Shown here one piece after another: positions 21,952 to 58,625 of a DNA stretch of 64,000 nucleotides. The stretch's first letter is position 1; each line of letters starts with the position of its first letter. This DNA is from an uncultured Bacteroidales bacterium (GTDB lineage: Bacteria > Bacteroidota > Bacteroidia > Bacteroidales > Muribaculaceae): contig CACWNQ010000006.1 in assembly GCA_902762385.1 (NCBI GenBank), positions 35,542 through 99,541 on the forward strand, given 5' to 3'. The notes under the pieces are model-generated. The model had not been told where the DNA came from. It saw only the letters and a list, made by a program, of their open reading frames with translations, and did not search any database. The translations under genes and the position numbers were made by a program.

Positions 21952-21985
21952 TCTAGAAGATCTAGAAATACTAGAAAATCTAGAA
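21952..21985. repeat. CTAGA repeat cluster upstream of the HU gene
   Basis: Four CTAG motifs start at 21952, 21962, 21971 and 21980, a spacing of 9-10 bp, each within a CTAGAA context. The cluster ends a few bases before the HU start codon, so it lies in the 5' leader or the glnS-HU spacer. The same motif family recurs around the hsd operon and before the ABC exporter. Confidence 0.7.
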
Positions 21986-21988
21986 CCA

Positions 21989-22267
21989 ATGCAGCACAAG
22001 GAAATAGTCGACAGTTTGTCGCAATCACTCGGCAGGAGTAAAGGCGACATCAACAAACTGATAGAAGCTCTGAGCAACGTTATTGTAGAACGCTGCTCAG
22101 AGCTTGACAGCATCAGTGTTCCACGTTTCGGGACCATCGAGGCTGTGAAGCATAAAGAGTTTATCGAGGTCGATAAGGAGACTGGAAATAAATCTCTGAT
22201 ACCACCATGTGTGGAAATGCAATTTACCCCTAGCACAGTGCTGAAAAAACAACTCAACCAATCATGA
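21989..22267 (+). CDS. HU/IHF-family DNA-binding protein
   Basis: A 92-residue protein with the HU fold: an N-terminal helical pair (MQHKEIVDSLSQSLGRSKGDINKLIEAL as the helical region) and a beta-arm region starting SVPRFGTIEAVKHKEF. It ends MQFTPSTVLKKQL, where HU proteins typically have the FxPSxxLK motif. The arm lacks the usual basic RNPxTG tip; a short VDKETGNKSLIPP segment replaces it. DNA bending by this protein may therefore differ from that of housekeeping HU. The gene overlaps the next one by 4 bp (ATGA), indicating translational coupling with the membrane-anchored HU homologue. Confidence 0.85.
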   Translation: MQHKEIVDSLSQSLGRSKGDINKLIEALSNVIVERCSELDSISVPRFGTIEAVKHKEFIEVDKETGNKSLIPPCVEMQFTPSTVLKKQLNQS

Positions 22268-23319
22268 ACGAGAAGATAGCATTTCCACAATTGGTTGAAC
22301 TTGTAGCCGAGAAAGCAAGCACTACCGAGCGCATGAGTGAACTGTTCTTACAAGAGCTGTTCACTGTCATCTCGAAAGAACTCATCAATGGCAAATCGGT
22401 AAAAATCAACGGCTTGGGCACCTTTAAAACAACAAAAGGTGACCATGGTAAAGAGGTTGTTTTCGTCCCCGACAAAGATCTCGCCGAAGATATCAATGCA
22501 CCCTTCTCACAATTCAAACCAGTAGTGCTCTGCGATGCTATTACCATTGAGCAACTCAATGAGATTGATGACAGTATTATGCAGCCTGAGCCCGCTGCCA
22601 CCACTATTGTGGAGCCTGTTGAACCTGCCGAGGAGATTGATGAGGGGGCTGCCGATAACAAGATTGAACAAGAGGAGAACCTAGAAGTCGCACAAGAGCC
22701 ACAACAAGAAGAACCAGCATTACCATTAGAAGAGTCTCCAACTGAGACTATCAATAAACACAATGGTAAAAGAAAATGGCTAACCATAGCCGCTGCTATA
22801 GCAGCCACAGCACTCATTGCCGGTTTTGCCACTCATTATTTGAAGAAAGGCACTACCGAAACTGTTGCCCAAACCGACTCTGTTGCGACACCTCGCCCTG
22901 TTCCTGAGCCTGTTGTCACCGACACACTACGCAACAACAATCTGATCTTCGACATGGCACGCAAGCACTATGGCGACCAAGCATTCTGGGTATATATTGC
23001 ACTTGAGAACAAAAAGCAATATCCCGACTATAACAAGATACCCATGGGAGCAGCGCTCGTGATTCCTCCAGCCGAAAAATATGGCATTAACAGTGACAGC
23101 AAAAAGAGCTTGAAAGACGCAGGTATCGAGGCCATGAAACTTTACAAGCAAGTGAAAGCCAGCAAAACAAGCGCAGAACCTGCAGTTGAAATCAAGCAAG
23201 AAGATGATACAACTACCACCAAGTCTTTGACCAAAATCACAAAAGCAAAGAGGCTAAAACCAGTGCGTAAGCAATATCGCCATTATAACCTCTACCGTAA
23301 CAGTCATCGCCGCCGATAG
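22264..23319 (+). CDS. HU-domain protein with transmembrane segment and LysM-like domain
   Basis: 351 residues with an unusual order. Residues 1-90 are an HU-type domain (SVKINGLGTFKTTKG, then FSQFKPVVL). Residues about 105-165 are an acidic Pro/Glu-rich linker. Residues about 172-193 form one hydrophobic segment (WLTIAAAIAATALIAGFA), preceded by a KRK positive patch. After a linker, residues 219-272 resemble LysM (NLIFDMARKHYGDQAFWVYI, then IPMGAALVIPP). The tail is strongly basic (RRKs, ending SHRRR). The positive-inside rule puts the HU domain in the cytoplasm and the LysM-like part in the periplasm. Similar HU-plus-LysM architectures occur in Bacteroidota, but the function is undescribed as far as I know. 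Confidence 0.82.
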   Translation: MNEKIAFPQLVELVAEKASTTERMSELFLQELFTVISKELINGKSVKINGLGTFKTTKGDHGKEVVFVPDKDLAEDINAPFSQFKPVVLCDAITIEQLNEIDDSIMQPEPAATTIVEPVEPAEEIDEGAADNKIEQEENLEVAQEPQQEEPALPLEESPTETINKHNGKRKWLTIAAAIAATALIAGFATHYLKKGTTETVAQTDSVATPRPVPEPVVTDTLRNNNLIFDMARKHYGDQAFWVYIALENKKQYPDYNKIPMGAALVIPPAEKYGINSDSKKSLKDAGIEAMKLYKQVKASKTSAEPAVEIKQEDDTTTTKSLTKITKAKRLKPVRKQYRHYNLYRNSHRRR

Positions 23320-23322
23320 CCC

Positions 23323-23694
23323 ATGATTAGCAAGTGTTTCCAAGTTGTTGCCAGTGGTTTGAACCTTATAGCCAAAACATTTGGCATGACTTACAATGAG
23401 ATAAACATCATTGTTTACTACCTTATTGTCCCTCTCAGCTGGACTATAATGATTGATATTCTTATCAAGAAGCCAATCACCACAATACTACTTATCACAG
23501 CCTGGATTACAATTTTCATCTTTCACCACAGCGATTTCAGGCAGTGGTGCGACTGGGCTTTCCAGAAGTCGGTTGATTTCCTACTATGGTTCAAACGCAT
23601 TGGCTGGAACTACATCCTGAGCTCAGTGATAATATGCGTAGTGGTCCCAATCATTATCTATGCAGCACTCATCATCGCCCTTATAAAACATTAA
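23323..23694 (+). CDS. Small hydrophobic membrane protein, unknown function
   Basis: 123 residues, no recognised family. Hydrophobic stretches lie at about 28-45, 52-68 and 97-120, with a Trp/Phe-rich amphipathic segment between (HHSDFRQWCDWAFQKSVDF). It starts 3 bp after the stop of the HU-TM-LysM gene and is followed by a 9-bp hairpin, so it forms the third gene of that operon. The context suggests it is a membrane partner of the anchored HU protein; this is inference only. Confidence 0.75.
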   Translation: MISKCFQVVASGLNLIAKTFGMTYNEINIIVYYLIVPLSWTIMIDILIKKPITTILLITAWITIFIFHHSDFRQWCDWAFQKSVDFLLWFKRIGWNYILSSVIICVVVPIIIYAALIIALIKH

Positions 23695-52730: not shown

Positions 52731-52786
52731 CTAGATTTTACTAGATGTTCTAGATTTTTGCTAGATATTCTAGCTGGATTTACTAG
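52731..52786. repeat. CTAG repeat cluster between hsdR and the four-helix-bundle gene
   Basis: Six CTAG motifs begin at 52731, 52741, 52750, 52761, 52770 and 52783, with spacing near 10 bp. The cluster overlaps the last codons and stop (at 52770-52772) of the four-helix-bundle gene. A stretch of 26 bases (52741-52766) is identical to 53490-53515 on the far side of that gene. Confidence 0.8.
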
Positions 52787-53444: not shown

Positions 53445-53459
53445 ATTTCAATAGATTGA

Positions 53460-53562
53460 CTAGATGTTCTAGATTTTGCTAGATTTTTGCTAGATGTTCT
53501 AGATTTTTGCTAGATGTGCTAGATTTTTGCTAGATGTGCTAGATTTTTGCTAGATGTGCTAG
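53460..53562. repeat. CTAG tandem repeat between the four-helix-bundle gene and hsdS
   Basis: Eleven CTAG motifs start at 53460, 53469, 53479, 53490, 53499, 53510, 53519, 53530, 53539, 53550 and 53559. The spacing alternates 9 and 11 bp after the third copy, giving a 20-bp unit CTAGATTTTTGCTAGATGTG repeated about three to four times. It occupies nearly all of the 121 bp between the two genes. Confidence 0.9.
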
Positions 53563-53565
53563 ATA

Positions 53566-58586: not shown

Positions 58587-58625
58587 CTAGAGGGCTAGAA
58601 GTTCTAGACATTCTAGATGGGCTAG
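58587..58625. repeat. CTAG cluster between DPP IV and ABC exporter genes
   Basis: Five CTAG motifs start at 58587, 58595, 58603, 58612 and 58622, at 8-10 bp spacing. A TTAGTTATTAGTTTCTTAG-type run lies just before it. This 133-bp spacer separates the ABC exporter stop from the DPP IV start. Confidence 0.75.

Follow-up and report, generated by a model that had tools for sequence, protein, structure and literature searches.

A conserved HU and HU-transmembrane-LysM gene pair in Bacteroidales: a candidate membrane-anchored HU heterodimer with reduced DNA arms in one clade

The stretch of DNA analyzed here, referred to as the window, is 64,000 nucleotides long and comes from an uncultured Bacteroidales bacterium. 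Three closely packed open reading frames (ORFs) in it are flanked by genes for a tRNA synthetase of class I (E/Q) and, on the opposite strand, for an AIR-synthase-type protein. Their coordinates, lengths, 4-bp overlap, and 3-bp spacer were all given correctly in the preliminary description of this DNA. The features of the locus, including those within the fusion protein with its single transmembrane segment (TM), are as follows.

21989..22267, + strand: HU1, a small divergent HU of 92 aa (PF00216, structure model, and conserved adjacency to the fusion)
22264..23319, + strand: HU-TM-LysM fusion protein of 351 aa, overlapping HU1 by 4 bp
22264..22533, + strand: HU domain of the fusion, residues 1 to 90, predicted cytoplasmic, beta-arm mostly deleted (PF00216, Foldseek)
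22534..22776, + strand: acidic, proline-rich linker (residues 106 to 156: D/E 31%, K/R 2%, P 14%)
22777..22833, + strand: single TM, residues 172 to 190 (mean hydropathy 1.84; helix at 170 to 193 in the model)
22912..23070, + strand: predicted periplasmic LysM domain, residues 217 to 269 (profile A4, phrog_380, model)
23161..23316, + strand: Lys/Arg/His-rich C-terminal tail, predicted to lie on the periplasmic side (alignments)
23323..23694, + strand: small hydrophobic protein of 123 aa, 3 bp behind the fusion and judged to lie outside the unit

The three genes had been taken for one operon, with a search for their order in other Bacteroidales suggested as a check. The part of this proposal that concerns HU1 and the fusion stands, as these two genes form a conserved pair; the third gene has no conserved linkage to them. 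It was found in 4 of 41 genomes, the window's own included, and among 31 close-relative loci (20 from the window's genus and 11 others, on 29 distinct contigs, one of which is the window) it adjoins the pair in two only, the window and L004, with L018 ending before that position. On these two counts, we judge it to be a bystander and reject it as an operon member. In two of the four genomes that carry it (G012 and G015), the third gene and the fusion lie on different contigs, and the region behind the fusion in six relatives holds other genes in five and no ORF of at least 70 residues in one. The small hydrophobic protein had no Pfam match. A mobile or defense origin was likewise rejected, as none of the three proteins had a PADLOC match at E ≤ 0.01; at E ≤ 0.01, PHROGs matched them only with one DNA-binding family, of HU type, and one endolysin family.

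The window also contains short repeats that have CTAG cores spaced about 9 to 30 bp apart. One array, at 21952 to 21985, lies directly before HU1, and others are found at 52739 to 52774, 53458 to 53563, and 58602 to 58617. The sequence TCTAGAANATCTAGAA, with up to two mismatches allowed, has 11 matches in the window against 0.1 expected; with up to one mismatch it has 25 in the genome, and its reversed control has none.

Both HU assignments were borne out, with PF00216 above its cut-off for HU1 (E 9.6e-14) and for residues 9 to 59 of the fusion (E 1.1e-8). HU-HIG (PF18291) stayed below its cut-off, at 21.6 of 26.2 bits, and a direct hhalign comparison of HU1 with the fusion was weak (E 0.12). 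The structure model of HU1 is well defined (pLDDT 85.1), and its top Foldseek match is the Anabaena HU-DNA structure 1p71 (E 2.6e-6). Structure prediction of the 351-residue fusion, suggested as a check in the preliminary description, was poor overall (pLDDT 49.7), and on this low-confidence model the HU part still matched HU-alpha (1mul, E 5.1e-4). Both HU1 and residues 1 to 100 of the fusion are under purifying selection, with pN of 0.11 to 0.18 and pS of 0.54 to 0.77 in three pairwise comparisons. Eight basic residues of HU1 (K4, R16, K18, R35, R46, K54, K86, and K87) are invariant in 12/12 rows of the window's clade.

For wider comparisons we used a set of 70 HU1-fusion pairs, from which L002 and L003 (contigs identical to those of L022 and L027) and L018 (cut) were excluded and among which four one-chain forms, described below, are not counted. 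The membrane-spanning arrangement proposed at the outset held up, with an HU domain, one TM, and a LysM domain following in that order in a widely conserved unit. No competing TM is apparent in the window fusion, where the highest hydropathy of any stretch starting outside residues 160 to 200 is 0.96. The 15 residues before the TM contain four K/R versus two in the 15 after it, and this excess on the HU side is found in 58 of the 70 fusions (reversed in seven and equal in five). The linker is acidic, as had been described. The basic C-terminal tail is found, within 28 aligned close-relative rows, in 13/13 of the window's clade and is missing from the other 15.

The LysM-like domain proved real but divergent, and Pfam misses it. 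The Pfam model PF01476 was listed for 0/27 members at E ≤ 0.1 and for one of eight further relatives, where it scored 14.6 bits, under its cut-off of 20.9. PRK11198, a LysM model of NCBIfam, matched 23/27 members (best 4.1e-7); for the window protein its value was 0.058, far under the cut-off. The endolysin family phrog_380 of PHROGs did match the window protein, with an E value of 7e-4. Profile A4, a LysM-domain alignment of 33 relatives searched against PDB sequences, matched solved LysM chains of Kbp (7pvc, 5.6e-12), a phage tail protein (5.5e-8), TsaP (2.9e-6), and SafA (2.1e-4), the last two of which we take to be wall-associated proteins. A model of the same 33-row alignment found LysM in 69/70 fusions (all except L088), most of the alignment rows being themselves among those fusions. 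In the low-confidence model of the window fusion, this region has strand-helix-helix-strand order with block pLDDT of 45 to 68, and no LysM chain was among the best 50 of 508 Foldseek matches. By profile homology, then, the domain is a LysM, and it is reasonably likely to bind peptidoglycan. The same LysM type also ends a protein without HU in another genome (L055:1492-3177), which by eye resembles an OmpA-type outer membrane protein.

The pair of HU1 and fusion is conserved well beyond the window. A survey of the genus found the fusion in 20/25 genomes, the window's own included, the five misses being 62 to 90% complete; elsewhere in the order, 3 of another 16 genomes matched. HU1 directly precedes the fusion in 31/31 close-relative loci, with a spacing, starts aligned, that ranges from a 4-bp overlap to a 24-bp gap; the 4-bp overlap is kept in all 15 loci that resemble the window most closely, which lie on 13 distinct contigs. 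At the level of the order, profile A1 matched 48/198 genomes, of which 13 had HU parts only or LysM parts only and were left out as fusions. A wider profile, A5, matched 197/198 genomes of the order, largely through ordinary HU, and we therefore counted only genomes with both ends. By hand tally, the unit with both its HU end and its LysM end is present in 35/198 genomes, and no unit was shown in the other 163. HU1 is adjacent in 31 of the 35 and fused in front, as one HU1-HU-TM-LysM chain, in four; in these one-chain forms, the first HU prefers the HU1 model and the second the fusion-HU model, in 4/4 cases each. Spacing outside the window's genus ranges from an 11-bp overlap to a 14-bp gap.

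At the phylum level, 50/198 genomes matched in some part. Eighteen genomes, which all belong to a single family outside the class, have the pair itself, with HU1 adjacent in 18/18 loci and LysM recognized in 17/18; the exception, L088, also has an HU1 of just 65 residues. The neighborhood of the unit varies. In other families it lies before moxR, encoding a MoxR-type ATPase, in 17/29 loci, together with a DUF58 gene (cluster of 15), which we take to be an envelope-type neighborhood. It follows a radical-SAM/TRAM gene, presumably of RimO type, in 8/29 loci, and in the window it lies beside the tRNA synthetase gene.

We also compared evolutionary distances among the domains, in 68 of the 70 pairs (L088 and L007, which has a masked stretch, were excluded). 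Over the 51 Bacteroidales rows, the distance correlation was 0.811 for HU1 and fusion HU, 0.637 for HU1 and LysM, and 0.547 for fusion HU and its own LysM. Over all 68 rows the contrast was smaller (0.867, 0.841, and 0.752 in the same order). These correlations agree in direction with a pairing of HU1 and the fusion HU.

An excerpt of PMC3969353 describes the HU core as made of intertwined monomers, with two arms that grip DNA and a tip proline (Pro63) that kinks it. Both marks of DNA binding are reduced in the window. The HU arm of the window fusion has 10 residues versus 26 in the full-length form, and in HU1 a lysine replaces the arm-tip proline. Across the 70 aligned pairs, the fusion arm has 26 residues with a tip proline in 17/18 outside-family rows and 26 residues with Val or Ile in 32/34 full-arm Bacteroidales rows; it has 9 to 16 residues in 18 Bacteroidales rows, including 13/13 of the window's clade. 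The HU1 tip proline is kept in 52/70 and lost in 18/70, again including 13/13 of the window's clade. Put together, 50 pairs have a full fusion arm and the HU1 proline, 17 have a short arm and no proline, 2 have a short arm with the proline (L005 and L088), and 1 has a full arm without it (L012). Arm loss and proline loss correspond to 4 and 5 changes on the tree, with at most four independent pairs (one on starred branches), and a formal test of their association was ruled out because the changes are too few.

Net charge points the same way in the window, at -1 for HU1 and -2 for the fusion HU; the two ordinary HUs encoded in this genome carry +12 and +5. It is important to point out that neither mark settles DNA binding by itself, because an ordinary HU of this genome (L063:1495-1770) has, by eye, a full-length arm without a tip proline, and because, in the outside family, 10/18 HU1 proteins have a net negative charge with the tip proline retained. 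A straightforward DNA-binding HU end, as in the preliminary description, is nonetheless not supported for the window, as the fusion arm is mostly deleted, the HU1 tip proline is gone, and both domains are net negative. Given the reduction of arm and tip proline, kinking of DNA by the window pair is improbable; binding may or may not occur.

To our knowledge, the placement of the nucleoid relative to membrane and wall is poorly understood in Bacteroidota. In our preferred explanation, to which as a whole we give an even chance, HU1 would heterodimerize with the HU domain of the fusion and be held with it at the inner membrane, and the LysM domain would dock on peptidoglycan in the periplasm. 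Ancestrally, this arrangement would have served as a transenvelope tether that kept DNA, or HU bound to the nucleoid, close to the wall. Both partners have reduced DNA-embracing and DNA-kinking arms in the window's clade, so that any remaining grip on DNA would be weak and non-kinking, by way of the helical body of HU1, or would have been lost. Heterodimerization is probable, given that the HU core is formed of intertwined monomers, that the pairing is constant, and that four genomes have both HU domains joined in a single chain. The family quite likely binds DNA; for the window copy, DNA binding falls somewhat short of an even chance. A tether is plausible for the family and doubtful for the window copy.

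Other readings of the same architecture have to be considered. It is possible, if unlikely, that the HU pair is a DNA-free scaffold, a module for protein-protein contacts that would act with the acidic linker to mark a site on the wall and recruit cytoplasmic partners in the manner of HubP. The arm loss and negative charge of the window's clade and the acidic linker of the fusion would suit such a role, for which HubP, with a periplasmic LysM, one TM, and an acidic cytosolic partner region (as given in an excerpt of PMC8789113), offers a precedent by analogy. However, the 50/70 pairs that combine a full fusion arm with the HU1 tip proline are hard to explain if DNA is irrelevant throughout. 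Alternatively, the fusion could act as an envelope sensor that sequesters HU1 by heterodimerizing with it, a change in wall or envelope then freeing HU1 to act on DNA. That HU1 is a separate gene overlapping that of its TM partner, and that moxR and DUF58 are neighbors in other families, would fit this idea, which we consider rather improbable: HU1 and fusion are one chain in four genomes, where release would require cleavage, and in the window HU1 lacks the tip proline and carries a net charge of -1.

There is also a slim chance that the LysM domain recognizes a protein or small ligand and not peptidoglycan, in which case the fusion would serve as a sensor in the membrane instead of an anchor to the wall. 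The nearest solved relatives of the domain are found in Kbp, which binds potassium, and in a phage tail protein, and the Pfam LysM model was unlisted in all 27 members searched; against this, the domain also matches SafA, TsaP, and a phage endolysin family, and it follows the TM in an outward orientation. More broadly, and tentatively enough that we would not call it probable, a dedicated transenvelope tether, built on an HU heterodimer and anchored to the wall by LysM, may exist in Bacteroidales and in one or more further families of the phylum, with a parallel HU-HU-TM-SPOR tether at least in this genome and with the pair re-purposed in some branches, the window's among them, after loss of the DNA-kinking arms. 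The compact, conserved unit of HU1 and HU-TM-LysM offers two deletable genes for studying nucleoid placement, and its natural variants (full arm, short arm, and one chain) could separate DNA binding from wall anchoring.

The second system just mentioned is encoded at L067:1330-2322 of the same genome, as a protein of 331 residues with HU-CCDC81_bac_1 (63.8 bits), HU-CCDC81_bac_2 (53.1 bits), a TM at residues 159 to 177, and a SPOR domain just under its cut-off (18.1 bits; cut-off 21). Two proteins of the HU-TM-wall-domain type are therefore encoded in the genome: the first has both HU domains in one chain, and the other, in the window, has its second HU as a separate gene. Like the window unit, HU-CCDC81_bac proteins (PF18174 plus PF18175, TM, and SPOR) place two HU domains inside, one TM, and a peptidoglycan-type domain outside. 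They differ in being one chain with SPOR, whereas the window unit is two genes with LysM; two HU domains in one chain, their characteristic trait, is not found in the window and occurs in 4/35 order-level relatives of the unit. The window HU stayed below the cut-off of PF18175 (14.2 of 35 bits), and SPOR had no match in the window proteins at E ≤ 1. Burroughs and co-workers (Cell Cycle 2017) reportedly predicted a role in chromosome partition for the bacterial CCDC81 HU clade, an HU-SPOR clade related to the window unit.

Ordinary HU and IHF share with both window proteins the HU fold and PF00216; the window unit differs in its membrane anchor and, within its clade, in the loss of arm and tip proline. 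Kbp (YgaU) and the phage-tail LysM are the closest solved LysM domains by profile A4, and we know of no HU or TM partner for either. On the side of positioning systems, FimV is grouped with HubP as a polar landmark protein. According to an excerpt of PMC8789113, HubP positions the chromosome 1 origin of Vibrio cholerae through ParA1 and has a periplasmic LysM, one TM, an acidic cytosolic partner region, and TPR at its cytosolic C terminus. The fusion resembles it, as described there, in having a periplasmic LysM, a single TM, and an acidic cytosolic region. HubP differs in the same account by being without HU and by having LysM before the TM, an order that follows from its cytosolic C-terminal TPR and is the reverse of the fusion's, where LysM comes after the TM; no TPR match was found in the window proteins. 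No paper on an HU-LysM protein was found in the open-access literature searched, judged by titles and abstract openings, and an extract of PMC10434189 tabulates an HU protein separately from a LysM protein. Related HU-TM-SPOR proteins and LysM-anchored positioning are precedents, and what appears to be new is a two-polypeptide, LysM-anchored HU pair with branch-specific loss of its DNA arms.
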